Positions 35,771 to 57,775 of a DNA stretch of 64,000 bases are shown one piece after another. Positions within the stretch are counted from its first letter, which is position 1, and each line of letters starts with the position of its first letter. The position numbers and the translations under genes are program-made. The notes under the pieces were generated by a model that saw nothing but the letters and a program-made list of their open reading frames with translations, ran no database searches and was not told the origin of the DNA. This stretch comes from Propionibacteriaceae bacterium P6A17. GTDB lineage: Bacteria > Actinomycetota > Actinomycetes > Propionibacteriales > Propionibacteriaceae. The stretch is taken from assembly GCA_000619965.1 (NCBI GenBank), contig JHVD01000003.1, positions 62,001-126,000 on the forward strand. The letters run 5' to 3'.

Positions 35771-35876
35771 GCGGAGTGGTGTTGTACGCACGCAAGCAGG
35801 CTGGTAGCGTGGAGTCAACCGTTCAGCCCGCCCAGATCCATCTGGTGTGGGCTGGATCTCTGTTGGGGCGCCGACG

Positions 35877-36887: not shown

Positions 36888-39800
36888 GTGACGCATTCGT
36901 CGTCGGTGAGGACTTCCTCTCCGAGCACTTCTTCACCACCGAGGCGAAGAACGAGTCGTTCCTGAAACTCGTGTTGGAGCGCCGCAAGTCGTGGGACGAG
37001 TCGGAGCTCCCGACGAGCCGCTCCCGGTTCACCGCGGAGCGCGGGCAGCTCGCCGTCGACCTCGCCAACCTCCACGCCGACGACGCCCCGAGCCTCGACG
37101 AAGTCGTCGCCCTCCACGACCGCATCCGCGCGATGCTCGGCTTCGACTCGGGCGAGTACGAGGTCGAGGTGGACGGGCCGGTGCGTCGGTACAACACGCT
37201 CGGCGTGGAGTCGGCGGCGCCGTTCGCGATGCTGGATGCGCAGCCGGCGGACGCCGTCGAGGAGATCTTCAGCCGCGACGGCGACACTCCCTTCCCGCTG
37301 CTGACGCCCTGGCAGCGCGACGAGAGGACCGTCGAGACTTCCGTGACGCGCGCCACGTCGGCGCTGTTGCAGGAGGAGGACGGGCCGGAGTTCGCGTTGA
37401 TCCTCGCGGGCCGCTGGCTCGTGGTGACGGAGCAGTCGCGCTGGGCGGAGGGCCGCTACCTCGCCGTCGACCTGCAGACCGTCGCCGACCGCAACGACGG
37501 TCGTCGCGGCGGCGAGATCGACAAGACGCTCACGATTCTGGAGGCGGCGTCGCTCGCCCCGGACGCCGACGGCCAGATCTGGTGGCGGGCGACGCTCGAG
37601 GAGTCAGTCAAGCACACGGTCGGCGTCAGCAAGGACCTGCGCGAGGGGGTCCGTCGGAGCATCGAGATCATCGCCAACGAGGTCGTCGCCCGGCGCAGGG
37701 CGCAGGGCCTCGATCCGCTCCCGGCGAGCCAGGCGCAGCCGCTCGCGAGGCAGTCGCTCCGGTTCCTGTACCGCATCCTGTTCCTCCTGTACGCGGAGGC
37801 GTCGCCCGAGCTGGGCGTGCTGCCGGTGGGCGCGACGGAGTACGACGCCGGCTACAGCCTCGACCGTCTGCGGGAGCTGACCCTCGTCGAGCTGTCGACC
37901 CCGTCCAGTCGGTCGGGCACGCACTTCTACGAGTCGCTCGACGTGTTGTTCCGTCTCGTCGACCGCGGGCATGCGCCCGGCGAGAGCGCGGACGGGCAGT
38001 CGGACGGGCTCGAGTTCCACTCACTGCGCGCCGACCTCTTCCGGCCGGAGGCCATTGCGTTGATTTCCGAGGTGAGGCTCGGCAACGGCGCACTGCAGGA
38101 CGTGCTGCGCAGGCTGCTGCTCAGCAAGGAGTCGAAGGGCCGCGACCGGGGCTTCATCAGCTACGTTGACCTCGGCATCAACCAGCTCGGCGCCGTCTAC
38201 GAGGGCCTGATGAGCTACACGGGCTTCTTCGCGGAGACCGACCTCTACGAGGTGGCGAAGGACGGCAACGCGGAGAAGGGCTCGTGGGTCGTGCCCATCG
38301 AACGCGCGGAAGGCATCGCGGAGAAGGACTTCGTCCGCGAGGTCGACGAGCTGACGGGCGAGCCGCGGCCAGTCGTCCACCATCAGGGGCAGTTCGTGTT
38401 CCGCCTGTCGGGTCGCGAGCGTCAGCAGTCGGCGTCGTACTACACGCCCGAGGTGCTGACGAAGTTCGTCGTTTCGCAGGCTCTCGAGGAGCTCCTCGAC
38501 CAGGACGGCACGACGACCACCGCCGACGAGATCCTCGCCCTGAGCGTGTGCGAGCCGGCGATGGGCTCGGGCGCGTTCGCGATCGAGGCGGTCCGGCAGC
38601 TCGCGGAGCAGTATCTCCGTAGGCGCCAAGCCGAGCTCGGCGAGGAGATCCCGCCGGAGGACTACCCGGAGGAGTTGCAGCGGGTGAAGGCCTACCTCGC
38701 CCTCCACAACGTCCACGGGGTCGACCTCAACGCCACCGCTGTCGAGTTCGCGGAGATCACGCTCTGGCTCGACACGATGAGCCGCGGCCTCGAGGCCCCG
38801 TGGTTTGGCCTGCGGCTTCGTCGCGGCAACTCCCTGATCGGCGCCCGCCGCGAGGTCTACTCGCGCAGCGACGTCACCTCGAAGGCGTGGCTGACGACGC
38901 CCGCCGCCGCCGTCCCGCTGGCCGACCTCGCCGAGCGCATCGAGCAGGACTCGCTCTCCCCCACCGCCACCGACGGCCGCATCCACCACTTCCTGCTGCC
39001 CGCCGAGGGGTGGGGGTCGACGTCGGAGAGCAAGGAGGCGAAGGCGCTGATCCCCGACCGGGTGAAGCGCGTCAACACGTGGCGCAAGCAGCTCCGCACC
39101 AAGCCGACGAAGAAGCAGCTCGACGCGCTGGTCGAGGTCGCCTATCAGGTCGAGGAGCTGTGGACGATGGCGCTCAGGCGCCTCATGGTCGCCGAGCAGC
39201 AGTCGCGCCGCGCGATCAAGCTGTGGGGCCGCGACGAGGCGCCGACGGCGGGCGTCGTCACCCGGGAGCAGATCGAGGAGTCGCTCGCCGACCCCGACGG
39301 CGCCTACCGTCGGCTGCGCCGGGTGATGGACGCGTGGTGCGCGCTGTGGTTCTGGCCGCTGACTGGCGAGGAGGTCGAGCCGCCGACGTGGGACCAGTGG
39401 ATCGACGCCCTCACCGGGCTGCTCGGCTCCAACCGCACCGGCCGTCGCGCCGCCGGCTTCGGCGCCGCCGCGCTGCAGTCCGGCGACATTTGGGGCACGC
39501 TGGCCGACAATGAGGACTTCGCACTCGCGGCCGGGCTCGCGAAGCCCGTCGACGAAGTCCTCGCCGCGCATCCGTGGCTGCGGGTGTGTGAGCGCGTGGC
39601 CGACGAGCAGGGCTTCTTCCACTGGGAGCTCGACTTCGCGCCGGTCTTCGGTCGGGGCGGGTTCGACCTGCAGGTGGGGAACCCGCCGTGGGTGCGGCCG
39701 ATGCAGGACAGCGACGCCATGCTCGCCGAGGGCGACCCTTGGTGGCAGCTCGAGAACAAGCCGTCGGAGGAAGCACGGGCGGCGCGGCGCGCGATCACCT

Positions 39801-41515
39801 TGGCCCTGCCCGGGATGTCGGGTGTCCTGCTCGACGGTGTAGCTCCGGTCGCCGCCACATCGGCCTACACGGGCTCGCTGGTCAACTACCCAGTACTGGC
39901 TGGGCTCCAGCCGGACCTCTATCGCTGTTTCATGTCAGTCACGTGGGCCCATGGGTCCTCTCGTGGCATCGTCAGCCTGCTGCACCCCGAGTCACATCTC
40001 ACCGACGAAAAGGCCGGAGTCCTGCGCGCGGCCACCTACCCACGGCTGCGTCGGCACTGGCAGTTCGTGAACGAGCTCCAGCTCTTCGGAGAAGTCCATC
40101 ACCATGTCTCCTACGGGGTCCACGTGTCCGGACAAACGCGAGACGTCGGGTTTCTCAATGCTTCTGCGTTGTACCACCCCGAGACCGTGGTGCGCTCGTT
40201 CCACCATGACGGCTCCGGCGAGCAGCCGGGCTTCAAGCATCAAGGTCGCTGGGACCAGCGGCCCCACGCGAGCCGCATCGAGACGGTGGACGACGCCACG
40301 CTCCGACAATGGCGCGACGTGCTCAACCCGGAGCTGGCAGACGCCCGCCAGACCCGAATGCTGTACACCGTCAACCGAGAGGTGGCGGAGACGCTGCGAG
40401 TACTGTCGTCGGGCAACCGAATGGCTTCGCTCGGGCTCAAGTTCTCGGCGGGCTGGCACGAGAAGATGGACCGACAAAAGGGCTACTTCGTCCAGCGTTG
40501 GGGCGCGCCGGAGAGCTGGGACGACGTGATCCTCCAGGGCCCGCATCTGCACGTCGCGACCCCGCTGTACAAACAGCCCAACCCGACGATGAAGCACAAC
40601 CAGGACTGGTCGGAGATCGACTTCGAGACGCTCGCCCCCGACGCCATCCCCGCGACGAGCTACAAGCCCGCCGGGTCTCGCGCCAAGTACGACGCCGACT
40701 ACACCCACTGGGACGGCAAGCCCGCCCGCGACGAGTACCGCCTCGCCTGGCGGGCAATGGCCGCGAACACCGGCGAGCGTACTTTGATCGCCGCGATTAT
40801 TCCTCCCGGCGCCGCCCATCCCAATGGCGTCTTCTGCGTCGGAGGAGTGCAAGCAAACGGAACGCTTGCGATCGCCGGCTTTGCAGCGTCGATGTTGCTG
40901 GACTTTGCAGTTCGAGCCGCTCCCAAGAGCGGCATCTACCAAGCCGTGTTCGACCGACTGCCCGCTCCACCTAAACACCACCCGCTTCTGCCTGCGCTGC
41001 GGTTCAGAGCGGCAAGGATGAACTGCGTCACCAACACCTACGCGGACCTCTGGCGCGAGTGCTGGGACGACCAATTCACGCAAGACGCTTGGACGACCAA
41101 TGATCACGTCTTCACAACGCTCGGCGACGTCGGCCCCGAATGGACGCCGGATACCCCGCTGCGACGCGCGGCTGATCGTCGACAAGCACTCGTCGAGATC
41201 GACGCGCTGGTCGCGCTCATGCTCGGCGCAACCGCCGACCAGCTCTGCACGGTGTACCGCACGCAGTTCGCGGTGCTGTACGGGTACGACCACAACGAGT
41301 ACCTGTACGACGCCAACGGCCGTCTCGTCCCGACGCCGGTCCGCCAGGCATGGAACAAGAAGGGCGACAAGATCTCCGACGACGAGCGCACCCACACCAA
41401 CGCCTCCGGCAACACGTACGTGTACGAACTGCCGTTCCAGCATTACGACCGCGAGAACGACATGCGGGTCGCCTACGCCGAGTTCGAGCGCCGCCTAAAC
41501 ACCGAGGGGGACTGA
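36884..41515 (+). CDS. Eco57I-like N6-adenine DNA methylase (DISARM/BREX-type)
   Basis: 1543 residues, start set by GAAGGAG and overlap with the Abi gene. AdoMet motif I is CEPAMGSGAFAIEA (E557) and catalytic motif IV is NPPW (N933). The ~375 residues between them contain HGVDLNATAVEFAEITLWLD and a large insertion. The N-terminal ~500 residues are unassigned helical sequence; the C-terminal part should hold the target-recognition domain. The size resembles PglX or DrmMI modification methylases. It would mark host DNA as self by adenine methylation. DNA from about 39,850 to 41,100 is visibly less GC-rich (~60%) than the rest of the gene, suggesting an exchanged specificity region. Confidence 0.83.
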   Translation: MSDAFVVGEDFLSEHFFTTEAKNESFLKLVLERRKSWDESELPTSRSRFTAERGQLAVDLANLHADDAPSLDEVVALHDRIRAMLGFDSGEYEVEVDGPVRRYNTLGVESAAPFAMLDAQPADAVEEIFSRDGDTPFPLLTPWQRDERTVETSVTRATSALLQEEDGPEFALILAGRWLVVTEQSRWAEGRYLAVDLQTVADRNDGRRGGEIDKTLTILEAASLAPDADGQIWWRATLEESVKHTVGVSKDLREGVRRSIEIIANEVVARRRAQGLDPLPASQAQPLARQSLRFLYRILFLLYAEASPELGVLPVGATEYDAGYSLDRLRELTLVELSTPSSRSGTHFYESLDVLFRLVDRGHAPGESADGQSDGLEFHSLRADLFRPEAIALISEVRLGNGALQDVLRRLLLSKESKGRDRGFISYVDLGINQLGAVYEGLMSYTGFFAETDLYEVAKDGNAEKGSWVVPIERAEGIAEKDFVREVDELTGEPRPVVHHQGQFVFRLSGRERQQSASYYTPEVLTKFVVSQALEELLDQDGTTTTADEILALSVCEPAMGSGAFAIEAVRQLAEQYLRRRQAELGEEIPPEDYPEELQRVKAYLALHNVHGVDLNATAVEFAEITLWLDTMSRGLEAPWFGLRLRRGNSLIGARREVYSRSDVTSKAWLTTPAAAVPLADLAERIEQDSLSPTATDGRIHHFLLPAEGWGSTSESKEAKALIPDRVKRVNTWRKQLRTKPTKKQLDALVEVAYQVEELWTMALRRLMVAEQQSRRAIKLWGRDEAPTAGVVTREQIEESLADPDGAYRRLRRVMDAWCALWFWPLTGEEVEPPTWDQWIDALTGLLGSNRTGRRAAGFGAAALQSGDIWGTLADNEDFALAAGLAKPVDEVLAAHPWLRVCERVADEQGFFHWELDFAPVFGRGGFDLQVGNPPWVRPMQDSDAMLAEGDPWWQLENKPSEEARAARRAITLALPGMSGVLLDGVAPVAATSAYTGSLVNYPVLAGLQPDLYRCFMSVTWAHGSSRGIVSLLHPESHLTDEKAGVLRAATYPRLRRHWQFVNELQLFGEVHHHVSYGVHVSGQTRDVGFLNASALYHPETVVRSFHHDGSGEQPGFKHQGRWDQRPHASRIETVDDATLRQWRDVLNPELADARQTRMLYTVNREVAETLRVLSSGNRMASLGLKFSAGWHEKMDRQKGYFVQRWGAPESWDDVILQGPHLHVATPLYKQPNPTMKHNQDWSEIDFETLAPDAIPATSYKPAGSRAKYDADYTHWDGKPARDEYRLAWRAMAANTGERTLIAAIIPPGAAHPNGVFCVGGVQANGTLAIAGFAASMLLDFAVRAAPKSGIYQAVFDRLPAPPKHHPLLPALRFRAARMNCVTNTYADLWRECWDDQFTQDAWTTNDHVFTTLGDVGPEWTPDTPLRRAADRRQALVEIDALVALMLGATADQLCTVYRTQFAVLYGYDHNEYLYDANGRLVPTPVRQAWNKKGDKISDDERTHTNASGNTYVYELPFQHYDRENDMRVAYAEFERRLNTEGD

Positions 41516-41517
41516 CG

Positions 41518-42471
41518 ATGCCTGTTGACCTGAGTGACAGACTCGTCGTAGCTGTTGCGTCCAGCGCGCTGTTCGATCTAACTGAAAGCGACCAGGTCTT
41601 CCGTGAACGGGGGGCTCAACAGTACGAGCAGTTCCAGATTGATCACCTCCACGATCAGTTTTCTCCCGGCCCTGCCTTTCAATTCGTGAAGCGACTCTTG
41701 GCGCTGAACCAGATCCAGCACGACCTCGTGGAGGTGCTTGTGGTTTCACGCAATAGCCCAGCATCCGGCCTTCGAATCATGGAGTCAGTGCGTCAGCACG
41801 GCTTGGGGATCACCCGGGCGATCTTCCGGAGCGGCAAGAATGCGCACGAGTTCATGCCACTTTTCAACGTCTCGCTCTTCCTCTCGGGCAATCGAGCTGA
41901 CGTCGACGCCGCAATTGCTGCTGGCCTACCCGCTGGGCATGTGCTCCCGACGCCGTATCGGTCTAGGGAAGAGGGCTCGCAGCTGAGAATCGCGTTCGAC
42001 TTCGACGGCGTGCTCGCCGATGACTCTGCCGAGCGCGTTTACCAAGAGAGCGACTCGCTAGACCAGTACTTCCAATACGAGCAGGATCACGCCGCAGAGC
42101 CGCTGAAGCCTGGGCCGTTGCAGGATTTCCTTTCGAAGATCAATCGCATCCAAGACATTGAACGGGCGAGGCATGAGGCAGATGAAACCTACGAGCGACG
42201 GGTTCGGGTCAGTCTCGTGACGGCGCGAAACGCCCCGGCACATGAGCGAGCGATTCGTTCCCTGATGTCCTGGGGTCTAGGGGTCGATGACGCATTCTTT
42301 CTCGGCGGGATCGAGAAGACTGGCGTCCTGAACGTACTCCAGCCTCACATCTTTTTCGACGATCAGCTGCGTCATCTCAACGATCTGGCTCTCGAAGCGC
42401 CAGCGGTGCACATTCCGTTCGGTCTCCACAATCTCGCGGACCCGACTAGCTCGCCCCCAAGAGACGCGTGA
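41518..42471 (+). CDS. Cytosolic 5'-nucleotidase I (cN-I) homologue
   Basis: 317 residues, starting 2 bases after the methylase stop. The 5_nucleotid family (PF06189) pattern is clear: paired metal-binding Asp in AFDFDGVLAD (D161, D163), SLVTARNAPAHERA, DDAFFLGGIEK, and PHIFFDDQLRHLNDL. Known relatives are HAD-fold enzymes that dephosphorylate nucleoside monophosphates, best known from animal AMP-specific cN-I. In this setting it could deplete nucleotides during infection (inference). Base composition is unlike its neighbours: a sample line counts 33 of 60 G+C against 43 of 60 in the following helicase gene, which points to separate acquisition. Confidence 0.85.
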   Translation: MPVDLSDRLVVAVASSALFDLTESDQVFRERGAQQYEQFQIDHLHDQFSPGPAFQFVKRLLALNQIQHDLVEVLVVSRNSPASGLRIMESVRQHGLGITRAIFRSGKNAHEFMPLFNVSLFLSGNRADVDAAIAAGLPAGHVLPTPYRSREEGSQLRIAFDFDGVLADDSAERVYQESDSLDQYFQYEQDHAAEPLKPGPLQDFLSKINRIQDIERARHEADETYERRVRVSLVTARNAPAHERAIRSLMSWGLGVDDAFFLGGIEKTGVLNVLQPHIFFDDQLRHLNDLALEAPAVHIPFGLHNLADPTSSPPRDA

Positions 42472-42661
42472 CACGCCTTCCTTGTTCGAGGCCTCGTCAC
42501 CGGGGTCACAAGGCATTCAACCAAACACGGGCCCCTATCAGGTGGGGAAGAGCTCCAATGGCGTTTCGGCGGCCCTCAGCACCCACAGGGTCACAACAAG
42601 ACCCAAGCACGTAGCACAGTGTCGCCGGGTTCGTCGCCACGGTCAGGCATGCGAGGTAAAA

Positions 42662-42667
42662 TATGCT
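42662..42667 (+). promoter_or_regulatory. -10 box of a leaderless promoter
   Basis: TATGCT, 6 bases, then GTG 42674; an overlapping TAAAAT sits at 42657. This indicates separate transcription of the small membrane protein. Confidence 0.6.
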
Positions 42668-42673
42668 TGTCAC

Positions 42674-43189
42674 GTGGATTTCATAACTGTAATCGCTACT
42701 TCGATCACTGCAGCAGCAGCGGTCTTCGCGCTGGTCATTACATTGAAGGTGTCGAGAGACGAACATGAACGTCAGTACCTCCGCGACCGCTTGTCTGCGA
42801 CCATCGACCTGATGGCATCCTTCGAAGAGCTTCAGGCCATACAAGTAGAGCGGTGGCTGAGTCCTTCGCGCACAGAGTCCGCGCGCGAACATCAAGACTG
42901 GACCCGCGCACGCGCGATTTTCGCGGCTCGCCTACGGGCTTCTTCTGAGCCATTGCCAATCTGCCGCGGAGCCGCGTTCCGCCATTTGCCCTTCGGCAGC
43001 GACGATCCTGTCGAAGCTGAGTACCTGAGAGAGGCGCCAGCTATCGGGAACCCTGAAACCGATAGCGCAATCGATATGAAGATGAGGGCCGAGATCGTCG
43101 GGGCAATCGATTCCTTGCGTAGCCGCCTCGACAAGGAGTTCCGGGATCCATCCGTGTGGCGCGGCCGTCCTCTCTCCGATGGGTTCTGA
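42674..43189 (+). CDS. Small membrane-anchored protein of the defence array
   Basis: 171 residues from GTG 42674, fixed by the leaderless promoter; longer frames upstream read through non-coding sequence. One N-terminal membrane helix (residues ~3-25, FITVIATSITAAAAVFALVI) is followed by a cytoplasmic helical region (SRDEHERQYLRDRLSATIDLMASFEEL) and a C-terminal part without known motifs. Shape and size resemble DUF4760-like or other single-helix accessory proteins, but I cannot assign a family. GC content is very low for this genome (27 of 60 in the first coding line). With the nucleotidase it forms a low-GC insert; a membrane effector or sensor role is possible but unproven. Confidence 0.6.
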   Translation: MDFITVIATSITAAAAVFALVITLKVSRDEHERQYLRDRLSATIDLMASFEELQAIQVERWLSPSRTESAREHQDWTRARAIFAARLRASSEPLPICRGAAFRHLPFGSDDPVEAEYLREAPAIGNPETDSAIDMKMRAEIVGAIDSLRSRLDKEFRDPSVWRGRPLSDGF

Positions 43190-43334
43190 GAGTGCCAAGG
43201 GCGCTACAAGACAGACGTCCCGACGAGCGTTCGTAATTCGGCATCGAGATGCGCCGGTGCTTCCCCGTGCTCGCCAGTCTGATGCTCGCGCTACTCCCCC
43301 TGCGACACCCAGCACTCACTCGCTTTCGCACCAT

Positions 43335-43340
43335 TAGGCT
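43335..43340 (+). promoter_or_regulatory. Probable -10 box ahead of the DUF1998 helicase gene
   Basis: TAGGCT within the 247-base gap after the small membrane protein, predicting a transcript start near 43347 and a leader that includes the short ORF at 43375. Confidence 0.45.
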
Positions 43341-43374
43341 TGGGCCAACGCAAACCAGTCGACGAAGGAGACGC

Positions 43375-43428
43375 ATGCAGGGCCCGATCCATCCGCCCCA
43401 GCGCCTGCACGGCGTCGTCGAAGGCTGA
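43375..43428 (+). CDS. 17-codon leader ORF upstream of the DUF1998 helicase
   Basis: MQGPIHPPQRLHGVVEG, preceded by a strong ribosome site GAAGGAG (4-base spacing) and ending 8 bases before the GTG of the 2109-residue helicase, which itself has only a weak site. The two frames differ, so this is not an N-terminal extension. The layout suggests that translation of the leader couples ribosomes onto the helicase start. It could also be a vestige of an older gene start. Confidence 0.4.
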   Translation: MQGPIHPPQRLHGVVEG

Positions 43429-43436
43429 GCCCCGTC

Positions 43437-46400
43437 GTGAGCGAGCTGATCCCCACCACGCAGGCCGAACGCATCCAGACGGCGCTGCGCGACTACCTGA
43501 CGACGACGTTCGCACTCGCGGACCCCGACGCCCGGGCGGCGCTCGATGCGTTCCTCGCCGACGACACCGACGGCATCTTCCGCGGCCCCTTTGTCCGCAC
43601 GCGCCTGCCGTTCGCGCCGGCCACCGGCTGGGAGGGGACGCTGGACGTCGTGCCCGAAGGGTTCATCCCGTTCGGGCATCAGGCCGAGGCATGGCGTCGG
43701 CTCTCGAGCCGCAGCGGCCGCCCCAAGCCGACGCTCGTCACGACGGGCACCGGCTCCGGAAAGACCGAGGCGTTCCTCATGCCGATCCTCGACCACGTGC
43801 TGCGTGCCCGTCGCGACCACCAGGAGGGCGTGAAGGCACTCATTCTCTACCCGATGAACGCCCTTGCCAACGACCAAGCGTCGCGCCTCGCCCGCCTCAT
43901 CACTGGCGAGTCGGCGCCCGGCAGGCTCAACCCCTACTCCGGCATCCGCGCCGCGCTGTATACCGGCGAGCAGGGCCCGAAGCGGGAGACGGTCACCGTC
44001 GACGGGCTCATCACCAACCGCAACGTCATCCGCAACAATCCGCCGGACATCCTCCTCACCAACTACAAGATGCTCGACCAGCTCCTCCTGCGTCGGGAGG
44101 ATCGCAACCTCTGGGCCACGAGCGCGGAGAACCTGCGCTACGTCGTGCTGGACGAGTTCCACACCTACGACGGCGCGCAGGGCACCGACGTCGCCATGCT
44201 GCTGCGACGCCTCGGGCTCACTCTCAAGGCCCACTGGCCCGAGCGCGGCAGCGCCCTCGACCGGCACCCCGACGAGGACTGGGCGCGACCGCTCGGCCAG
44301 ATCACGCCGGTGGGCACCTCCGCCACGCTGGGAGACGGCGCGGGGTCGTCGGTGATGACGGCCTTCGCCACGGATGTGTTCGGGGAGCGATTCGACGAGT
44401 CGTGCGTCGTCGGTGAGTCGCGGCTCGGCGTCGACGAGTGGTTCGCCGACGCCGAGATGCCCATCGGGTCGGAACCGCTGCCGATCACGCAGTCGCTCAC
44501 GCGGGAGCTCGTCGAGCGTCTCGAGGACGAGATCGACGGATCCGCAATCGCCGACGTGCTGCTGCGCGGCCTCTTCAGCGATTCGCCCACGCCGCCCACC
44601 GACGACACCGCGCGCCTCCGCAGGTTGAAGGCTCTGCCGCTGTTCCGTGACCTCGTCTCCGCCACGAGCCGAGCCATCCACATCGACGACCTCGCCCGAG
44701 CGATCATGCCTGCGGACATCCGCCTCGACCTCGCTTCGCAGCTCGTCACCCACCTGCTCTCAGCCGTCTCGCACCTGCGAGCCCAGCTCGGCCGGAACGT
44801 CGTCAACGTCGACCTGCACCTGTGGGTCCGCGAGCTCAGCCGCATCGACCGCACCGCCGCGTCGGCCGCCCGCTACCTCTGGAGCGACGACGGCCAGCGC
44901 GTCGGCGAGGACGACGCCTACCCCGCCATCTTCTGCCGCCACTGCGGGCGCTCCGGTTGGGGCGTGGAGCTGAGCCCGAGCGGCCACCAGCTCGTCGGCT
45001 CGTCCGCGGCGATCCGCCGCAGCCACCTCGCCAAGCAGGGCCGCTTCCGCCCCCTCATCCACGCGCCGGGCGAGGGGTTGTCGTCGGGCAAGGACCCCGT
45101 CGAGGGGCTGTGGTGGTTCGATACCAACGCGCGCACGTTGCAGCCCACTGCCCCCGACCCGGACGACCCCGAGTACCGCGAGGGCCACATCCTCCCGGTG
45201 CTCACCCACGTGGGCACGGACGCCGAATCCGCTTCCCGCAACGACGTCTGCCCCGCGTGCCAGGAGCCCGACGGCATCCGCTTCATTGGCTCGGCCATCG
45301 CCACCATGCTGTCGGTGAGCCTGTCGTCGCTGTTCGGCACCCCGCGCCTCGACGAACGCGAGAAGAAGGCGCTCATCTTCACCGACAGCGTCCAGGACGC
45401 AGCCCACCGGGCGGGCTTCGTCGCGGCCCGAAGCCAGGTGCTCACCATGCGCGCGGTCATGCGCGACGCCTTCGCCACCGCCGACGAGCTCGACCTCGAG
45501 CAGCTCACCGACGCAATCCTCGCCCGCACCGGCGACGATCTCATCCGCCGCCACCGCATCCTCCCCACCGAGCTCGCTGCCGACGACCGCCTCCGGGAGT
45601 TCTGGACCCAACCGACGATGCAGCATGTCCCCCGCTGGGTCGTGCAGCACGTACGACGCCGGTTGTTGTTCGACGTGCAGCTCGAGTTCGGTCTGTCGTC
45701 GCGCATCGGCCGCACCCTCGAACGCACGGGCACGCTCAGCGCGATGGTCGACGTCGGTTCGCCCGCCCGCATGGCTGCGATCGCGCGCGAGGTACTCGCG
45801 AAGTCGCAGGAGCAGCTCCTCGATCCTCTCTCCGACGACACCCTCACGGCCTGGGTGCGTGGCGTGGTCGAGCACCTGAGACTGCGCGGCGCGATCATGC
45901 ACGAGTGGCTGCACGCCTACATCGACGCCGACGGCCGCCGCTGGAGGATCTGGGGCGGCAGGCCACGAGGTCAGGGGATGCCCGCGTTCCCGCCGGGGCG
46001 CTCGGCGCCGGCGTTCGCGAAGGTCGGCGGCCCGAGAATGGGCAGCGACCAGCTCTTCGACAACGTGAATGAATCCGCCGGCTGGTACGCGCGGTGGGCC
46101 AGCCGCGTCCTCGGCGTCACTCCCAATCACGGTGCGTTGCTCACGCGTATGCTTCTCGAGACGCTCGACGCCGACGGCGCCCTCGAGACCCGCACGTCGC
46201 CGGAGGGCACCAAGGTGTTTGCGATCCCGTCGCAGCGCGTGCTCGTACGGCGCATCGACGAGCGAGACCTCCATGACCGCCACTTGCTCACCTGCACCAC
46301 TTGTCGAGCGCAGTGGCCAGGCTCGACGGCCACCGTCGACCAGCTCGACGGCGCTCCATGTCTTGGGGTCCGCTGCCACGGCACGCTCACCCGAGCCTCG

Positions 46401-49400
46401 CTCGCTCCTGACGGGTTCTACCGGCGCCTGTACGCGGGCGCCGACATGCGACGCATCGTCGCGCGTGAGCACACCAGCCTGCTGCCGACGAAGGAGCGCC
46501 TGCGGTACGAGCAGGGCTTCAAGGCCGGAGGCGCCGACCCGGAGCAGCCGAACGTGCTCGTCGCGACGCCCACCCTTGAGATGGGCATCGACATCGGCGA
46601 CCTCTCGGCGGTGTTCCTCGCATCCCTGCCGCGGACCGTGGCGTCGTACCTGCAGCGCATCGGCCGCGCCGGTCGCGCGACGGGCAACGCCCTCACGCTC
46701 GCCTACGTCACCGGGCGCGGCGAGACCCTGCCCCGGCTCGGCGACCCGCTGTCGATGATCAACGGCGGCGTCCGCCCGCCCGCCATCTTCCTCAGCGCCG
46801 TCGAGATCCTCCAACGGCAGTACCTGGCGCACCTCGTCGACCGCCGCGCCATGGCCGACGACACTCCGCACACCGCCAATACGGCCATGCAATCCGCCGA
46901 GCACAGTACCTTCCTCGGCACGCTCATCGAGGACGCCGAGGCGCACCACGACGAGCACCTCGACCGCTTCCTCGCGGCGTTCGGAGACAGCCTTCGCGAC
47001 GAGTCCGTCGCCCATCTGCGAGTGTGGGCCACGCCCGGTCAGGGGGTGCGCACCAGCGGGCTCGCTGGGCAGGTGCTCGACGCCTCACAGCGTTGGCGCG
47101 AGCGTCGCGACGGGCTGCAATTCCGGCAGCAGGAGATCCAGAAGTCGCTGCTGGAGCTGCAGCAGGCCGCCAACGTCCAAGCCGCCCCGGAGGAAGCCTT
47201 GCGGGCGCTGAAGGTCGCCGAGAGCGCGATGAAGCTCACCCGTGGGCAGCTCGCCGAGATGTCCGGTGAGTACTGGATTTCCGTCATGGAAGAGTTTGGG
47301 CTCCTGCCCAACTACACCCTCCTGGGCGACGCGACGACCCTCGATGTCAGCATCACGTGGCACAACCCCGAGACGCGCCAGTACGAGCACGAGGCCGCCG
47401 ATTTCCAGCGGCCAACCGCCCGCGCGCTCACCGAGTTCGCCCCCGGCAACACGTTCTACGCCCGAGGGTGGAAGATCGGTATCGACACGATCGACCTCGG
47501 CACGCAGGGCGACGCAATCCGCCCCTGGACCTGCTGCCCCACCTGCGGCTACGTGAAGGACGTCGAGGAGAGCGGCAAGGCCGTCGCCGTGCAGGCCTGT
47601 CCGCGATGCGGAGACCATGGCATCGCCGACGTGGGCCAGCGCCTGCACACCGTCGAGTTCCTGCGCGCCTCTGCCGACATCGAACGCGAGGGCCACCGCA
47701 TCGACGGCGACGACGAGAACCGCGCCCAGAAGCGCTTCGAGATTGCATGCCTCGCCGACATCGACCCTGAGCACGTCGCGACATCGTGGTACGTCGACGG
47801 CTACGACTTCGGCGCGAAGTATCTCGACCGACTCACGCTCCGCTGGCTCAATCTCGGCCCGGCCGGTGAGCAAGCCATGAAGCAGACGATCGCCTCCGAC
47901 GAATGGTCCGCAGCGCTGTTCCGCGTCTGCGAGGGCTGCGGCCACCTCGACCAGAAGGCCAGCAGCAACTCGTTCGATGAGCACCGCCCCTGGTGCCAGT
48001 ACCGGAAGTCGCCGGAGGAGCGGACCCGGACCGTCGCGCTCGCCCGGACGCTTGCCACGCAGGGCGTCGTGCTGCCGCTGCCCTACGACGTGACCGCCGG
48101 CGACGTGTTCGCGCAGCCCAGCCTGCAGGCCGCCCTGCTCATGGGCATTCGCGACGAGTTCGGCGGCTCCCCCGACCACATCGGTGTCGAGACGATCCGA
48201 GACCCGAGACCCGACGGCACGGCCGTCACAGCGCTGCTGCTGCACGACACCGTCCCCGGCGGCACCGGCTACCTGGCCGACCTCGTCGACCCGGACAACC
48301 TCTGGAGCCTTCTCCACCGCGCCTACGAGGTGGTGCGCGACTGCCCTTGCCAAACCGAGGATCGGCTCGCCTGCCACCGCTGCCTACTGCCCTTCGCGCC
48401 GCCGTGGGACGTCGCGAACGTGGCGCGAGCGACGGCGGAACGTCACCTCCGCGCCATCCTGAACTCGGGCGACCGCCAAACGCGAGAGGTCCCCGTCGGG
48501 AGGGCGTGGACCATCGCGCGGCAGCCGACGGTGAAGCACGACCCGGAGTCGGCGCTGGAGGCGCTGTTCCGGGAGCGATTCCTGGAGATCGCCGAGCGGA
48601 TCGGCATGCAGATCACGCAAACCCCCAGCTCGACGGGCTTCGGCAACACCATCAAGCTCACCCACGGCCAGCATTCGTGGAAGCTCGCGCCGCAGGTGTC
48701 CACGCTCGGCACGCAGATGGATTTCGAACTCACCTCCACGAATCCGGCGCTGAAGATCGCCATCTACCTCGACGGCTACCGCTACCACGCCACGACGAAG
48801 CACAACCGGATCGCCGACGACGCCCACAAGCGCGCCACCCTGCGCAATGCGGGCTACGAGGTGCTGTCCATCACGTGGCAGGACGTGCAGCAGTCCCTGG
48901 AACAGGTGGTGCCCGGACCGTCGTGGGCGAGGCTCGAGGTCATCGACCAATTCCCGAAGTTCTACGCGACGACTCCCGCCGTCGCCGACGCAGCGCTCGG
49001 CGGACCGATGCGCATCATCCGCTCGCTGCTCGAACAACAGCAGACCGTCGCATCGTGGCAGAACTTCGCTCGCGGCATTCCATTGGCGGTGCCGCGGACC
49101 GCGCCGGTCGACATCCCGAGCCGCGCGGACCTCGCAGGGGTGGCCTCTGCCCTCCTCGAGGACTCCGCGGCCTTCCCAGCGAGTGGCCCGGGCAACGGCT
49201 GGTGGTGGCGTGAGGGCGACGTGGGCATCCTCGTGCGCCGCGTCCCCGACGCGCCGAGTGAGTTGGACGTCGTCGCCATCCTCGACGACCGTGATGACGC
49301 CGTCGCTCGGGACGACTACCGCACGAGCTGGCAGCGCTGGCTGGCGTTCAGCGACGCGCTCATCTTCCGCGGCCACGCGACGAGCACCATCATCACCAGC

Positions 49401-49766
49401 GTCAGACAGACGCTGGAGGAGACGCAGAGCGGCCCGACTGCCGCCCGGGCTGCCACGCTGGGGCCGGAGGGAGGCGTCGAAGCAGAGGGGCTGCCCGACG
49501 ACTGGGCCGCGGCCGTCGACGAGGCCTACGGCGGCGCGGACCTCGCGGCCGAGCTCGTGGACCTCGGAGTACCCGCCCCTGACCTCGCCGGCGCGGAGAT
49601 CGGCGACGACAACGTGCCCGTGGACTTCGCGTGGGAAGACGCCCGAGTGGCCGTCTTCCTCACCCCCGACGACGACACCGCCGCCCTGCTCGCCGCCGAC
49701 GGCTGGCGATGCTTCGGACCTGACGCCAAGGCCATCGCGGCCGCATTGAAGGAGGCCAAACCATGA
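43437..49766 (+). CDS. DEAD-box helicase with DUF1998 and Vsr/DUF559-like nuclease region
   Basis: 2109 residues from GTG 43437. Superfamily 2 motor: Walker A TGTGSGKT (K109), DEFH (239-242), GTSATLGDG, helicase C with ATPTLEMGIDIGDL and QRIGRAGRA (Q1073). Several Cys pairs (FCRHCG, VCPAC, LLTCTTC, CCPTCG, CPRCG, CEGCG) suggest zinc ribbons. A DUF1998 (MZB) cysteine cluster C1636-x-C1638...C1646-xx-C1649 follows. Residues ~1750-1820 have a Vsr/DUF559 shape: MDF (D1762), AIYLDGYRYH (D1779, H1784), D-x3-KR, then GYEVLSITWQDV. The last ~250 residues repeat a weaker nuclease-like pattern (DFAWEDARVAVFLT). It combines the roles of DISARM DrmA (helicase) and DrmB (DUF1998) and may replace the missing DrmC nuclease. 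The stop overlaps the next gene. Confidence 0.82.
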   Translation: MSELIPTTQAERIQTALRDYLTTTFALADPDARAALDAFLADDTDGIFRGPFVRTRLPFAPATGWEGTLDVVPEGFIPFGHQAEAWRRLSSRSGRPKPTLVTTGTGSGKTEAFLMPILDHVLRARRDHQEGVKALILYPMNALANDQASRLARLITGESAPGRLNPYSGIRAALYTGEQGPKRETVTVDGLITNRNVIRNNPPDILLTNYKMLDQLLLRREDRNLWATSAENLRYVVLDEFHTYDGAQGTDVAMLLRRLGLTLKAHWPERGSALDRHPDEDWARPLGQITPVGTSATLGDGAGSSVMTAFATDVFGERFDESCVVGESRLGVDEWFADAEMPIGSEPLPITQSLTRELVERLEDEIDGSAIADVLLRGLFSDSPTPPTDDTARLRRLKALPLFRDLVSATSRAIHIDDLARAIMPADIRLDLASQLVTHLLSAVSHLRAQLGRNVVNVDLHLWVRELSRIDRTAASAARYLWSDDGQRVGEDDAYPAIFCRHCGRSGWGVELSPSGHQLVGSSAAIRRSHLAKQGRFRPLIHAPGEGLSSGKDPVEGLWWFDTNARTLQPTAPDPDDPEYREGHILPVLTHVGTDAESASRNDVCPACQEPDGIRFIGSAIATMLSVSLSSLFGTPRLDEREKKALIFTDSVQDAAHRAGFVAARSQVLTMRAVMRDAFATADELDLEQLTDAILARTGDDLIRRHRILPTELAADDRLREFWTQPTMQHVPRWVVQHVRRRLLFDVQLEFGLSSRIGRTLERTGTLSAMVDVGSPARMAAIAREVLAKSQEQLLDPLSDDTLTAWVRGVVEHLRLRGAIMHEWLHAYIDADGRRWRIWGGRPRGQGMPAFPPGRSAPAFAKVGGPRMGSDQLFDNVNESAGWYARWASRVLGVTPNHGALLTRMLLETLDADGALETRTSPEGTKVFAIPSQRVLVRRIDERDLHDRHLLTCTTCRAQWPGSTATVDQLDGAPCLGVRCHGTLTRASLAPDGFYRRLYAGADMRRIVAREHTSLLPTKERLRYEQGFKAGGADPEQPNVLVATPTLEMGIDIGDLSAVFLASLPRTVASYLQRIGRAGRATGNALTLAYVTGRGETLPRLGDPLSMINGGVRPPAIFLSAVEILQRQYLAHLVDRRAMADDTPHTANTAMQSAEHSTFLGTLIEDAEAHHDEHLDRFLAAFGDSLRDESVAHLRVWATPGQGVRTSGLAGQVLDASQRWRERRDGLQFRQQEIQKSLLELQQAANVQAAPEEALRALKVAESAMKLTRGQLAEMSGEYWISVMEEFGLLPNYTLLGDATTLDVSITWHNPETRQYEHEAADFQRPTARALTEFAPGNTFYARGWKIGIDTIDLGTQGDAIRPWTCCPTCGYVKDVEESGKAVAVQACPRCGDHGIADVGQRLHTVEFLRASADIEREGHRIDGDDENRAQKRFEIACLADIDPEHVATSWYVDGYDFGAKYLDRLTLRWLNLGPAGEQAMKQTIASDEWSAALFRVCEGCGHLDQKASSNSFDEHRPWCQYRKSPEERTRTVALARTLATQGVVLPLPYDVTAGDVFAQPSLQAALLMGIRDEFGGSPDHIGVETIRDPRPDGTAVTALLLHDTVPGGTGYLADLVDPDNLWSLLHRAYEVVRDCPCQTEDRLACHRCLLPFAPPWDVANVARATAERHLRAILNSGDRQTREVPVGRAWTIARQPTVKHDPESALEALFRERFLEIAERIGMQITQTPSSTGFGNTIKLTHGQHSWKLAPQVSTLGTQMDFELTSTNPALKIAIYLDGYRYHATTKHNRIADDAHKRATLRNAGYEVLSITWQDVQQSLEQVVPGPSWARLEVIDQFPKFYATTPAVADAALGGPMRIIRSLLEQQQTVASWQNFARGIPLAVPRTAPVDIPSRADLAGVASALLEDSAAFPASGPGNGWWWREGDVGILVRRVPDAPSELDVVAILDDRDDAVARDDYRTSWQRWLAFSDALIFRGHATSTIITSVRQTLEETQSGPTAARAATLGPEGGVEAEGLPDDWAAAVDEAYGGADLAAELVDLGVPAPDLAGAEIGDDNVPVDFAWEDARVAVFLTPDDDTAALLAADGWRCFGPDAKAIAAALKEAKP

Positions 49767-52042
49767 GCGCGACCCTCATCATGACGAAGCAGGCCAACCA
49801 CATCGACGGCAACCTCAAGAAGAAGGCCTTCACCTTCCTCGAGAAGCTGACGACCGATCCGACCACGCCGGGGCTGCACATCGAGCCGATCATCGGCTCG
49901 GCGGACCCACGCGTGCGCACCGGCCGTGTCGACGAGCAGTACCGGGCCGTGCTCTTCCAGCTCAGCGCGGGGCAGGACATGGCATTCGTGTTCCACGGGA
50001 TCTGGAACCACGACGACGCGATCGCGATGGCGAAGCGCGTGACGCTCAACATCAACAGCGTCAACGGCATGGCAGAGATTCGGATGGTCGCCCCCGACGA
50101 CACCCCCGCCCCGGTCGAGGCGAAGGACGTGGAGGCCGAGTCTGTGCTGGCGGCGGCGGCCGAGGTTGCGCCTGCCGAAGTGGAGTCGGTCGAAGAGGAG
50201 CAGATCGAGGAGGGGCCCGTCAAGGTGGCCCCCGCGGAGCCGGAGGTCATCGTCGGGGCCACGTGGGACGAACTGGTCAACGTGCTCGGGCTGCCGCGCG
50301 AGGTCGCCGACGCCGCAGTGATGGCCAAGACCGAGACGGCCCTGCTCGCCGCCGCAGAGGGTGGGCCGGAGTGGCAGCAACACGCCCTGCTGTCCCTCGC
50401 GACGGGCTCGACCGTCGCCGAGGTACTCGAGGAACTGCACATCGACGTAGGCGATACGCCGTCGGCCGACCCCAGCGACGAAGAGATCCTCGCACGGCTC
50501 AAGCACCCATCGGCGGGGATCGAGTTCGCGGAGATCGAAGGCGTCGACGAACTACGTCGCATCATCGACGGCGGCGACTTCGGAGCTTGGCGGGTGTTCC
50601 TGCACCCCGAGCAGAAGGAAATCGCGGTGCGCTCCCGCAACGGGGCCTTCCGGCTGTCCGGCGGCGCCGGCACCGGCAAGACCGTCGTGCTGTTGCACCG
50701 CGCCCAGCACCTACTGCGCACGAATCCCAAAGCCCGCGTCCTGCTCACGACGTACACCGTCAACCTCGCCGCGGCCATGCGGCGCGATCTGGCGAGGCTC
50801 AACCCGTCGCTGGAACTCAGCGAGTCGATCGGCGACCAGGGCGCCGTTGTGCGCGGCATCGACGCTATCGCCAACCAGATCGTGCGCACCGCCGGTTCCG
50901 GCCTGATCCCGGCCGTCGCCGCCGTGCTCGGGACCGGGCGCGAGGACATCATGGTCCGCGCACGCGACAACCAGTGGAGCGAGGCAATCGCCAATGCCGC
51001 GGACCCCGCGCTGCCTGAGGCACTGCGCAGTCGCCACTTCCTGCAGGCGGAGTACGAGCTCGTCGTGCTCCCCAACCGCATCGTCGACGTCGACCGCTAC
51101 CTACGCGTTGCGCGGCCGGGACGCCACGTGCGGCTGAGCCGCCCGCAACGCGCGGCGGTGTGGGAGATCTTCGCCGAGTACCGACGCCTCGGGCAACAGC
51201 GAGGCACGGCCGATTTCCAGGAGGTGGCGATGATCGCGGCCACGTACCTCGAGCAACGCGCCGCAGCGCACGGACGAATGGCCGACCACGTGCTTGTCGA
51301 TGAGGGGCAGGACATGACACCCGCCCATTGGCAGCTCATCCGCGCGCTTGTCGACGAGGGGCCGAACGACCTGTTCATCGCCGAGGACAGCCACCAGCGC
51401 ATCTACGGCAACAAGATCACCCTGTCCCACTACGGCATCAACATCCGCGGACGCTCGCGACGACTCACGCTCAACTACCGGACCACCGCCGAGAACCTGC
51501 GCCTCGCCGTCGCGATCCTCGACGGGGGCGACTATCAGGATCTGGAGTCCGAGGACGAGTCAACGAAGGGCTACCGCTCGGCCCGACGCGGCCCCGCACC
51601 CAAACTGGCGCGGTCCTCGTCGATGGGTGAGGAACTGGACCACGCTGCTGAGCTCCTGCAGCGCTGGCTCGGCGAGGTGGAGCAGCCGGAGTCGTTGGCG
51701 GTGCTTGTCCGTGACCGGCCGCAACGGGAGTTGGTCGTCGGGGGACTCGCCGAACGAGGCGTGCAGGCCCGAGCCGTGGACAAGTCCGATGTCCAGACCG
51801 GTGCACCCGTCGTGATGACCATGCACCGGGCGAAGGGCATGGAGTTTGCGAAGGTGCTGCTCTTCGGCATCGCACAGGGCTCGGTGCCGATCAACCTGCG
51901 CGACGACGTCTACGACGAGGCCGATCTCACGGACTCTCTGCTGCGGGAGCGGTCCCTGCTCTACGTTGCCGCCTCTCGGGCGCGAGACGAGCTGGTCGTG
52001 TCGTGGAACGGGCAGCGGAGCGAGTTGCTGCCGCAAGGGTGA
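49763..52042 (+). CDS. RelE-like / UvrD-family helicase fusion
   Basis: 759 residues; ATG 49763 overlaps the previous stop, with GAAGGAGG upstream. Residues 1 to ~95 resemble a RelE/ParE toxin fold (KKKAFTFLEKLTTDP...GRVDEQYRAVLF...FHGIWNHDDA). An acidic linker rich in Ala, Pro and Glu follows (~115-165). The rest is a superfamily 1 motor: Walker A AGTGKT (K306), DEGQD (513-517), LNYRTT, and TMHRAKGMEF. Such proteins are frequent in defence islands. The motor could unwind processed phage DNA; whether the RelE-like part cuts RNA or only binds partners is unknown. Last gene of the first array. Confidence 0.83.
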   Translation: MSATLIMTKQANHIDGNLKKKAFTFLEKLTTDPTTPGLHIEPIIGSADPRVRTGRVDEQYRAVLFQLSAGQDMAFVFHGIWNHDDAIAMAKRVTLNINSVNGMAEIRMVAPDDTPAPVEAKDVEAESVLAAAAEVAPAEVESVEEEQIEEGPVKVAPAEPEVIVGATWDELVNVLGLPREVADAAVMAKTETALLAAAEGGPEWQQHALLSLATGSTVAEVLEELHIDVGDTPSADPSDEEILARLKHPSAGIEFAEIEGVDELRRIIDGGDFGAWRVFLHPEQKEIAVRSRNGAFRLSGGAGTGKTVVLLHRAQHLLRTNPKARVLLTTYTVNLAAAMRRDLARLNPSLELSESIGDQGAVVRGIDAIANQIVRTAGSGLIPAVAAVLGTGREDIMVRARDNQWSEAIANAADPALPEALRSRHFLQAEYELVVLPNRIVDVDRYLRVARPGRHVRLSRPQRAAVWEIFAEYRRLGQQRGTADFQEVAMIAATYLEQRAAAHGRMADHVLVDEGQDMTPAHWQLIRALVDEGPNDLFIAEDSHQRIYGNKITLSHYGINIRGRSRRLTLNYRTTAENLRLAVAILDGGDYQDLESEDESTKGYRSARRGPAPKLARSSSMGEELDHAAELLQRWLGEVEQPESLAVLVRDRPQRELVVGGLAERGVQARAVDKSDVQTGAPVVMTMHRAKGMEFAKVLLFGIAQGSVPINLRDDVYDEADLTDSLLRERSLLYVAASRARDELVVSWNGQRSELLPQG

Positions 52043-54363: not shown

Positions 54364-57300
54364 TCACTCTTCGAAGCTGGCTTCCTCAAATCCGAGGGAG
54401 GCGGCGTTCTCGGAGATCGTGCGAATCGTCGATTCGTCGAAGCCACCGGCGCACATGGCTTCGATCTCCAGCCGCACGGTGACGTCGGTGTCCGTCCTAC
54501 CGATCAGATGCTTCAGCACCTCCGCGTTGATCTTCAGCAGATCCGCAGGTGCTGCGCTGGGGTTCAATGACACCGCTGCGAACAGTCGTTTGCGCGGGGG
54601 GTTGTCCCGCATCGAGTACGAGGTGCTCGTCGCGGAGGAGCCCCCGACACCCTCTCCAGCGCCCACCTGGGCGCCTGCCCCGTTCGTGTCGCCGCCCGGA
54701 TGGGGGGAAGCCGTGCCGACGCCGGCGGCGTCATCCGCGGCACGCTGAGCGCGCGCCACCTGCGGCTGCACGAGCAGCGTCTGCATCGTGGGGATCGGGT
54801 CGGCACCCTTGTCGCCGGGGAGCCAGAGGCCGCGGTAGCGGCCGTCGTCGTTCACGCCTTCGGCCAGCGCGAAACCGTCAGCCTCCCAACTGATGGGATT
54901 GCTCTGTGTGAGGCTGCCCAGCAGCGCCGACGCATCGCGCAGGCGCGGCATGTAGGGGTACTGGGCGTAGAGCTCCCAGAGGTTCCCCGCCCGGACGTGC
55001 CCCGCCTTCCACACTCCGGGAAACATGTCGAGCTGCATCCGCACAGCGCTGGCCGACTGGCTGCGGCGCAAGAGATCCTCCGTGCCGAGCTTGCGCGCCA
55101 CACGTTCGGCAAGGGATATCCGCGCGCTGCTGTCAGCGCGCAGCGTGTCGATCGTGAACGGCTGCGACCCGTCATCCTGCACCGGCACGAGCGCCCAAAT
55201 GTAGGTGAGCTGGAGCCGGTCGTCGACGGTGGTGTTGGCCTGCGCCTGCTTGTCCTCCGCCTGCTGCCGCTGGTTGTGGGTGAGATCGAGCTCTGCGGCG
55301 TTGCTGAGCACGAAGCTCCAACCAAGGTAGTCGCGCACGGCATGCTCAAGCCCGTCGTATGCTCCTTCATCGGCCGCCAGGTACACGAGCATGTTGCGGT
55401 TGACGCGGTTGCCGGTGCCGTGGGTGGCCGTCATCTTCTGCGCGGCTTCGATTGCCGATGAGTCCGAGGAGTTCTTCCGGTGGGTCATCTTGGGGTGCAG
55501 GATCACCAGACGAGCCTCGTCGAGATCCAGCACGTCGCCCGAGTCCTCAGGCCCGACGTGTACGCGGGCGAACTCCGATTTCCCCTGCGGCATGCGCTGC
55601 AGGCGTCGAAGAATCTCCGCCCACACATCTTCGACGTGCAGCCGCTCAGCCTGATCCTTCGCCCGACGAGTGATGTTGGCTTGGAGATCGAACCAATAGC
55701 GTCCCTGCGCGTTGTAGAAGTGCGTGGCGCGATCCGTGAGGTTGCTCAGCGCCGAGTGGAAGTTGCCGACGGTGTCGCCCGGCGTCGCCACGCCGAGGTA
55801 CAGCCGCTGGGCCTCGATGCCCTTCTGGCCGGCGCCGATCGTCGGGGCTGCGCCGAAGAACACGGCGCGCGCGAGCCGCTTCGTGATCTGGCGGGCCCCG
55901 AAGAGCGGCTTCTCCGTGTCGATCTTCCACGGCTCCGAGCCGTCACCGTCCACGTCCGCGTCGATGACGGCCTTCCACGAGTCAGGCAGGTACTGGGTGA
56001 TCTCCGAGTTGACCGTGCTGTCGTAGAGCGGCACCGAGCCGGGCAGGATCATCGGCGACTGGTCGCCCGAAGCCCACAGCGTGTGGATCACGGCGTTCAT
56101 CAGCCGTAGCACGCCGCGCGTCCGCTGGAAGCGCTCGAGCGTCGACCAGTCCTCGTAGAGCCGGTCGAACACCTCCGGGTGGATCGGGTACGTCTGGCGG
56201 ATGCGCTCCTCGTACTTGTAGTCGCGCGCTTCCTTCGGGAACTCGCTACTGTGCTTCGTGTAGAACTCGACGAATGCCCTTGCCGTCGCATTGATGGCGG
56301 CCTGCGCATCGGCATCGGGCGTGCGGAAGAGCCGCTGACGCACGATGTGGTAGGACTCCGTCGCGGAGGCCGGGCGCCACTGATCGGCAACTCGCCGGAC
56401 GACGTTCTGCAGGCGGGTCAAGGCAGCCTGCCCAGCCTCACCGCCGACTTCCTCGGCGTTGCCGCGGGCACGGTCGTCGCCGTCATGCGAGGCGGGGATC
56501 GAGATCGCGAGCAGGATGCCCGGAGTGGCCTTGGCCACCTCGGTGAGCGACTGGGCAAACGTGAACTGCGTGTCGAACGTCCCGGCGGGGAGGTCGTCGC
56601 GGCCGAGGAGCTGGCGCGCGTAGGCCACCCACTCGTCGACGAGGATCACCGCCGGCGCGTACCGCTCGAGGAGCGTGTGCAAGGCTTCACCCGGGTGCGT
56701 GCCGGAACCATCCGCAGCCGCCACCAGGTCGTACGCCTCGCGGCCGCCAAGCTGCCAAGCCATCTCGCCCCAGACGGTGTTGACCTTGGTGCCGTCCTCC
56801 TTGATCGACCCCTCCGGAGCGAGATGATTGCCGACGATCGCCACCCGTCGCGCACGCACCGGCGTGCCGTTCGGCGCGTAGCCCGAGTCGGAGAGCAGCT
56901 CCTGGAAGCTCTGGGGGAAGACATCGAGCGACTCCCCTGCCGCGAGATGCCAGAGCGTCAGCATCGAGTGGGTCTTGCCGCCACCGAAGTTGGTCTGGAG
57001 GTTGATCACCGGCGTCGCGTTCCGGTCACCGGCGAGGCGCCGCACGCCGAGTCCGATGAGCTCCCGCAGGCCGTCGGTGAGGTAGGTGCGCTCGAAGAAG
57101 CTCCGCACGTCGGAGTAGTCGGAGGCCTGCTCAGGCTGGAACGCCACTTTGTACATGTCGGCCGCGAACTCCGATGATCGGAAGTTGCCGGTGGCGACGT
57201 CGTCGTGCGGCTGCAACACCTCCCTCCAAGGCTTGAGGCCCTGCGATGCGGGCGCGTTCGCCTCCGATGCGAGCACCTTGCGGTCTGCGGCCTGGACCGT

Positions 57301-57708: not shown

Positions 57709-57745
57709 GGATGGTCCCTTCTGGAGTTGCCCCCAACGATAGTGT

Positions 57746-57762
57746 CCGCGGGCCGCCCGCGG
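57746..57762 (-). other. GC hairpin between the DUF1444-like and DUF499 genes
   Basis: CCGCGGG and CCCGCGG pair across a 3-base loop. No T-run follows on the minus strand. It may slow polymerase or protect the upstream mRNA; placed directly ahead of the putative DUF499 promoter box. Confidence 0.4.
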
Positions 57763-57775
57763 CCGAGCGTCATCC

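Follow-up and report, generated by a model that had tools for sequence, protein, structure and literature searches.

The question raised by this locus is whether a large helicase protein ends in a nuclease that can still cut DNA. The locus lies in a 64,000-nucleotide stretch of the genome of Propionibacteriaceae bacterium P6A17 (GenBank assembly GCA_000619965.1, contig JHVD01000003.1, positions 62,001 to 126,000 of the forward strand), and this whole stretch is referred to here as the window. An unbroken open reading frame (ORF) with a GTG start, 2109 codons and a TGA stop occupies positions 43437-49766 of the window, on the forward strand. The gene, armC, belongs to an ARMADA Type II anti-phage operon, and it is quite probable that its product carries an active Vsr-type endonuclease, followed by a middle region and a degenerate copy of the domain, and cuts the DNA on which the helicase acts. 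The order of the domains, the fold, the conserved residues and the place in the operon all come from computation. A sequence-only reading of the same DNA had already proposed a helicase-DUF1998 protein with a C-terminal Vsr/DUF559-like nuclease; it was right in kind and wrong about a supposedly missing Glu, and the published ARMADA architecture had gone unnoticed there. This C-terminal architecture is already in print (PMC12458937, a 2025 preprint), and the window protein is a new member. The gene and its domains are arranged as follows.

43437-49766, forward strand: armC, a YprA-like SF2 helicase with a C-terminal Vsr-type nuclease, 2109 amino acids (80 full or partial orthologues)
43677-44216, forward strand: DEAD helicase domain, residues 81-260 (Pfam PF00270, E 1e-20; Walker A GTGSGKT, motif II DEFH)
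46461-46679, forward strand: Helicase_C match, residues 1009-1081 (PF00271, E 9.4e-13)
48123-48386, forward strand: MZB/DUF1998 Zn-binding domain, residues 1563-1650 (PF09369, E 6.6e-12)
48519-48944, forward strand: Vsr-type PD-(D/E)xK domain, residues 1695-1836 (profile comparison, model and conserved residues)
48945-49487, forward strand: middle region, residues 1837-2017 (1837-2000 without similarity to Vsr or MTES profiles)
49488-49763, forward strand: degenerate second Vsr-like domain, residues 2018-2109 (Vsr profile match, superposition and residue counts)

The cysteines C1636, C1638, C1646 and C1649 lie in the final stretch of the MZB/DUF1998 match, just where the sequence-only reading had placed a cysteine cluster. 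The motifs that it listed beyond this cluster, namely MDF (D1762), AIYLDGYRYH (D1779, H1784), D1794-x3-K1798-R1799, and GYEVLSITWQDV, are found in this order and with the numbering it gave.

Among the nearest Pfam models by score is REase_MTES_1575 (PF18741), which matches residues 1746-1820 with E 4.4e-5 in the full protein and with E 8.2e-7 (29.5 bits) when the isolated domain is searched. The conservation counts given below use 80 relatives, the best 80 of 301 relatives found in a scan of genome contigs; 47 of them, 48 members with the window protein, make up the alignments A2 and A4, which were used for modelling, A4 also providing the domain profile for the comparison with Vsr. Of these 48 family members, 37 match the MTES_1575 model at E<=0.1. 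The Vsr model itself (PF03852) finds no match in the window domain with HMMER at E<=0.1 and is matched directly by 3 of the 48 members at this threshold (best E 0.0011). In a profile-profile comparison, the ArmC domain aligns with 32 PF03852 proteins at a probability of 96.1 (E 3.6e-9 in a one-template search) and with 30 MTES_1575 members at 94.1, as against 0.1 and 0.3, respectively, for the neighbouring control region 1837-2000. For DUF559, 0 of 57 genomes gave a match at E<=1e-12, and the MTES_1575 and Vsr sets took its place in the comparison. The part of ArmC aligned with Vsr comprises residues ~1760-1819, with E1708 falling outside it; within it D1762, D1779 and H1784 stand opposite the Vsr Asp, Asp/His/Asn and His, respectively.

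The sequence-only reading had made its case depend on conservation of the catalytic residues among orthologues. D1762 and D1779 are identical in all 80 relatives, as are E1708, G1780, H1784, N1790, D1795, K1798 and R1799. All nine residues are also invariant in a 24-row alignment (A1) that consists of the window protein and 23 order-level relatives found without the motif pattern, some of which share genomes with the 80; they were drawn from 29 order-level loci (L005-L033), six of which (L020, L024, L025, L030, L033 and L029, the last broken by a stop) did not enter the alignment. Among four distant homologues (E. coli, Nostoc, Streptomyces and Tsukamurella), E1708, D1762, D1779, H1784, D1795 and R1799 are kept in every one.

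It had further been supposed that Tyr in the IYLDG strand replaces a catalytic Glu, so that activity might depend on other acidic residues or be lost. This part did not hold. The position, residue 1777, is Phe in 67 and Tyr in 13 of the 80 orthologues (Tyr in the window), and the opposite column in the 32 Vsr proteins has Phe in 31 and Leu in one. The pattern is thus Vsr-like, and Glu is not to be expected here; since Vsr proteins also do without the DUF559-type Glu, its absence is no sign of a dead enzyme, and a nuclease killed by Tyr1777 can be discarded. Of the 30 aligned MTES_1575 members, 15 have Glu at this column. As for the other motif positions, the Vsr column opposite D1779 contains Asp in 15, His in 9 and Asn in 8 proteins, and the column opposite H1784 is His in 32 of 32.

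A fold of this kind is also predicted. The model of residues 1690-2109 (420 residues) has a predicted local distance difference test score (pLDDT) of 88.0, and the model of the isolated Vsr domain one of 81.3. Superposition was used as a second look at Foldseek candidates. The isolated-domain model superposes on I-Bth0305I (3r3p) with Z 7.7 over 84 of 97 residues (root-mean-square deviation, rmsd, 2.7; 23% identity), on BsoBI with Z 7.7 over 117 residues (rmsd 3.2), and on the Vsr structures 1cw0 (Z 7.6, 100 of 155 residues, rmsd 5.0) and 1vsr (Z 6.6, 92 of 134 residues, rmsd 2.9). Lower-scoring superpositions include TnsA, VRR_NUC, FAN1 and Hjc, which we take to be restriction-endonuclease folds. 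As far as a predicted model can tell, the nuclease rows are consistent with one another. In the Foldseek search with the isolated domain, four unnamed viral proteins were found at E<=0.001, and some weaker rows were named DUF559 or endonuclease. Searches of the PDB by sequence gave less. With the single sequence (phmmer), all 51 listed matches had their best-scoring part in a helicase region; a 470-residue profile returned five weak rows, mainly of designed repeat proteins, and 3r3p at E 0.39; and the domain profile returned 3r3p as the sole sequence, at a non-significant E of 0.056.

Among known nucleases, the domain resembles the Vsr endonucleases (PF03852; 1vsr, 1cw0), with which it shares the fold, the PD-strand Asp, the aromatic-x-(Asp/His/Asn)-Gly...His pattern and the lack of Glu in the strand. 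Vsr endonucleases nick DNA at T:G mismatches; the ArmC domain differs from them in being embedded in a helicase, and mismatch specificity is not to be expected of it. REase_MTES_1575 and DUF559 (PF04480) are the nearest Pfam models by score and have the same motif order, whereas the ArmC domain stays below their curated cut-offs and lacks the Glu seen in half of the MTES members. I-Bth0305I, which shares first place among the nuclease superpositions with BsoBI and Vsr, is unlike the ArmC domain in that it is a stand-alone homing enzyme with Glu present in the strand.

The weaker second copy that had been suspected in the last 100 residues is borne out as well. Residues ~2018-2109 reach a probability of 90.9 against the Vsr profile and 87.0 against the MTES profile, and in the 420-residue model this region superposes on the endonuclease-like protein 3hrl (Z 7.0, 78 residues, rmsd 3.2). 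E2054, W2066, G2089 and W2090 are found in 80 of the 80 orthologues. The catalytic position 2063 is Asp in 56 of the 80, and the D-G-x4-H motif is absent, so the second copy is conserved but degenerate. Compared directly, the two copies give a probability of 3.0, and the kinship between them thus rests on the separate similarity of each to Vsr. In many Type II proteins, according to the sections of the ARMADA preprint considered here, inactivated EEP and Vsr domains come after a Vsr domain that is predicted to be active (PMC12458937). In the superposition rows listed for the 420-residue model, which includes region 1837-2017, no EEP protein is named.

The genomic setting agrees with this architecture. 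The operon extends over positions 32915-52042 of the window, and its other arm genes are the following.

32915-35770, forward strand: armA, a BrxHII/DrmD-like SNF2 helicase, 951 amino acids (37% identical to its E. coli counterpart)
36884-41515, forward strand: armB, a PglX-like DNA methyltransferase, 1543 amino acids, with NPPW at 933
49763-52042, forward strand: armD, a GajB/UvrD-like helicase, 759 amino acids, whose first 4 bases are shared with the end of armC

The BrxHII-like, PglX-like, YprA-like and GajB-like order of ARMADA Type II is found here, with extra genes at the A-B and B-C junctions, and the end of ArmC has a predicted-active Vsr-type domain and then a further inactivated one. 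In the parts considered here, the preprint of Bell et al. (PMC12458937, bioRxiv 2025) describes Type II ArmC in the same terms: the same gene order, a YprA-like helicase, DUF1998, a C-terminal predicted-active Vsr domain and a terminal inactivated one. The window operon differs from that description by two insertions, an Abi_2 gene at the armA-armB junction and a 5'-nucleotidase gene at the armB-armC junction, the Type II gene order being termed strict in the preprint. ArmA, ArmB, ArmC and ArmD of the window match an E. coli plasmid locus with the same gene order at 480, 711, 628 and 284 bits, ArmC with 28.5% identity. An E. coli chromosome has a near-identical four-gene locus at tRNA-Phe, with annotated Zorya II genes and two paired helicase genes, read here as Druantia III, as its neighbours; figure legends of the preprint place ARMADA in the same setting, beside Zorya II and Druantia III at tRNA-Phe. 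In all 80 relatives ArmC is followed downstream by an ArmD-like match, within 600 bases in 79 of them, and the C-terminal ArmC region occurs in 35 of 293 sampled same-order genomes, the window's own included. Other features of ARMADA Type II are an N-terminal RelE-like domain in ArmD, a BrxA-like insertion and a clade of its own in the YprA tree. Residues 1-281 of the window ArmD give no RelE match at E<=0.01 with the Pfam RelE models, which are weak and could miss such a domain. An Rfam scan of the window returned nothing at the gathering score. Facing the operon on the reverse strand is a second defence system, with an HmaC-like gene (HEPN_Swt1 + DUF499) at 54367-57861 and an HmaB-like gene (DUF1156) at 58767-61517.

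How such an operon might act can be proposed only conditionally, and here we infer that DNA is cut, that the conserved residues lie close together in space, that methylation plays a role and that helicase and nuclease are coupled. ArmB would methylate host DNA and, together with ArmA, mark or select unmodified phage DNA. ArmC would load on the selected DNA and translocate along it, and the Vsr domain would nick or cut the strand fed by the helicase, in a metal-dependent reaction with E1708, D1762, D1779 and H1784 placed around the active site. The degenerate second copy may bind DNA or a partner. Within the operon, the Vsr-type domain is, judging from the sequence, the obvious candidate for the cutting activity, as had been suggested. 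A helicase-nuclease reading of ArmC is supported by analogy with DruE of Druantia III, which, in the parts of PMC13192584 considered here, is reported as a helicase-nuclease that binds and cleaves DNA, and in which the R1258A change in the PLD pocket eliminates defence by Druantia. Like ArmC, DruE joins a YprA-like helicase to a C-terminal nuclease; it differs in having a PLD nuclease instead of Vsr, a partner DruH, and only patchy similarity to ArmC.

The resemblance raises the possibility that the window protein simply is DruE of Druantia Type III, the more so as DruE3 is its best PADLOC model (E 3.2e-88). PADLOC-DB 2.0.0 dates from 2023 and predates the 2025 preprint naming ARMADA. Assignment was made by pairwise scores, gene order and domains, and these make DruE identity very improbable. 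An E. coli DruE-like protein aligns with the window protein in three pieces of 136, 64 and 45 bits (residues 27-316, 1011-1128 and 1556-1653), whereas the alignment with E. coli ArmC runs unbroken over residues 4-1859 with the 628 bits already given. The four genes follow the ARMADA II order, and in place of the two C-terminal PLD domains of Druantia III, for which ArmC gives no Pfam match at E<=0.1, there is a Vsr domain; no E. coli DruE match extends past residue 1653. DISARM fares no better: its DrmA helicase and DrmB DUF1998 protein come from separate genes, and in ArmC helicase and DUF1998 form one polypeptide, and no PLD family corresponding to its nuclease DrmC was found with Pfam in the seven named ORFs of 32915-52042 and the aldo-keto reductase gene after them. 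Gene order, domain content and pairwise scores thus led us to reject the Druantia, DISARM and Dpd labels given by PADLOC and NCBIfam.

Several observations weigh against an active ArmC nuclease. The MTES_1575 scores (23.9 to 29.5 bits) remain under the curated cut-off of 38.2 bits, the Foldseek search of the PDB with the 420-residue model has no match at E<=0.001, Z values of 6-8 are only middling by the scale of the superposition tool, and the two top superposition rows are mitoribosomal proteins (8.4 and 8.1), with further unrelated names in the list. If taken alone, the low single-sequence Pfam score and the weak Foldseek E-values would suit a chance resemblance to Vsr. Such an explanation is scarcely credible and close to refuted in view of the profile-profile probability of 96.1 against 0.1 in the control region, together with the fold and the residue conservation. 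More serious is the alternative that the domain is a retained DNA-binding module that no longer cuts and serves to position DNA or partners for the helicase, comparable to the Vsr domains of Druantia I and II, which are predicted to be inactivated (PMC12458937, in the parts considered). The last Vsr copy of ArmC has indeed decayed, with the catalytic-position Asp in only part of the orthologues and no Asp-Gly-x4-His after it. The window protein has Met at residue 1761 (codon 48717-48719), directly before D1762, where all 80 relatives have Pro, so the window copy may be mildly altered. The Nostoc homologue departs at N1790 and K1798, and the search behind the set of 80 relied in part on a pattern that includes N1790, D1795, K1798 and R1799, which biases their conservation there. 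The ARMADA activity section of the preprint lists only the Walker A and B mutants of ArmC, K110A and D234N, and mentions no Vsr mutant (the preprint worked with BL21-AI and phage HK022); the parts of the ARMADA literature considered contain no ArmC cutting assay. A pseudonuclease is nevertheless unlikely, since nine motif residues, eight charged or polar and one Gly, are kept in 80 of 80 relatives and mostly across phyla, which pure binding would rarely demand.

The operon of the window contains three further ORFs at its junctions.

35847-36887, forward strand: Abi_2 (AbiD/AbiF-type) gene between armA and armB (PF07751, E 1.9e-49; PADLOC AbiD, E 8.9e-59)
41518-42471, forward strand: 5'-nucleotidase gene between armB and armC (PF06189; PADLOC candidate family PDC-S08; GC content at third codon positions, GC3, 0.68)
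42482-43189, forward strand: 235-codon ORF with a TTG start, of doubtful coding status (no Pfam or PADLOC family; GC3 0.64)

The stop codon of the Abi_2 gene overlaps the armB start. By tblastn, the Abi_2 gene has a match in 0 of the 80 relatives, only some of whose loci reach armA. The GC3 of the 5'-nucleotidase gene, compared with 0.88-0.91 for the arm genes, suggests a recent arrival; homologues are present in 12 of 245 genomes of the order, the window's own counted.

The armB-armC gap could be measured in 63 of the 80 relatives; in seven the ArmC start was out of reach, and ten had no ArmB upstream (three of these with less than 2 kb of upstream sequence). Its median is 15 bases. In 10 of the 63 loci it exceeds 300 bases, and in eight of these ten it holds ORFs that match defence families, as follows.

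L038, L102 and L108: GmrSD
L068: OLD-like ATPase
L077: DRT UG17
L093: AriA/PtuA-like ATPase
L097: DRT UG32 with a 2TM effector
L053: AbiEii

In L105 the gap gave no family match, and in L106 (959-3859) it contains an inverted armB piece and a single other ORF without a Pfam match. Locus L053 (338-4877) also has an inverted armB copy of ~1.35 kb, 86% identical, beside a recombinase of the phage-integrase (tyrosine) family, and this copy could switch the specificity of the methyltransferase; an inverted armB segment is found in L115 (3947-5647) as well. In the window, blastn at E<=1e-3 detected no inverted self-match within 32001-53500. In L124, a same-genus relative outside the count of ten, the armB-armC gap holds a retron-type VII reverse transcriptase together with DUF3800. 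Between armC and armD, a GmrSD gene was observed in L068 (11431-14175), the sole armC-armD gap above 600 bases among the 80 loci.

These observations allow a tentative proposal, doubtful as it is: ARMADA II may serve as a chassis whose junctions, chiefly that of armB and armC, take up defence genes as operon cargo. Inverted armB pieces could then switch target specificity, and the Abi_2 and 5'-nucleotidase genes of the window might be back-up effectors if ArmC fails. The terms AbiF, nucleotidase, retron, GmrSD and "between ArmB" do not occur in the main text of PMC12458937 by a term search; reports elsewhere are possible.

For the family as a whole, the finding bears on how ARMADA destroys its target. 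A 2026 review lists it among the systems that restrict by unknown mechanisms (PMC12904381), and the preprint describes its protection as direct and non-abortive (PMC12458937), both sources being taken into account in part. The Vsr domain of ArmC is a natural candidate for the DNA-destroying step, and the residues listed here make its role in ARMADA directly testable.

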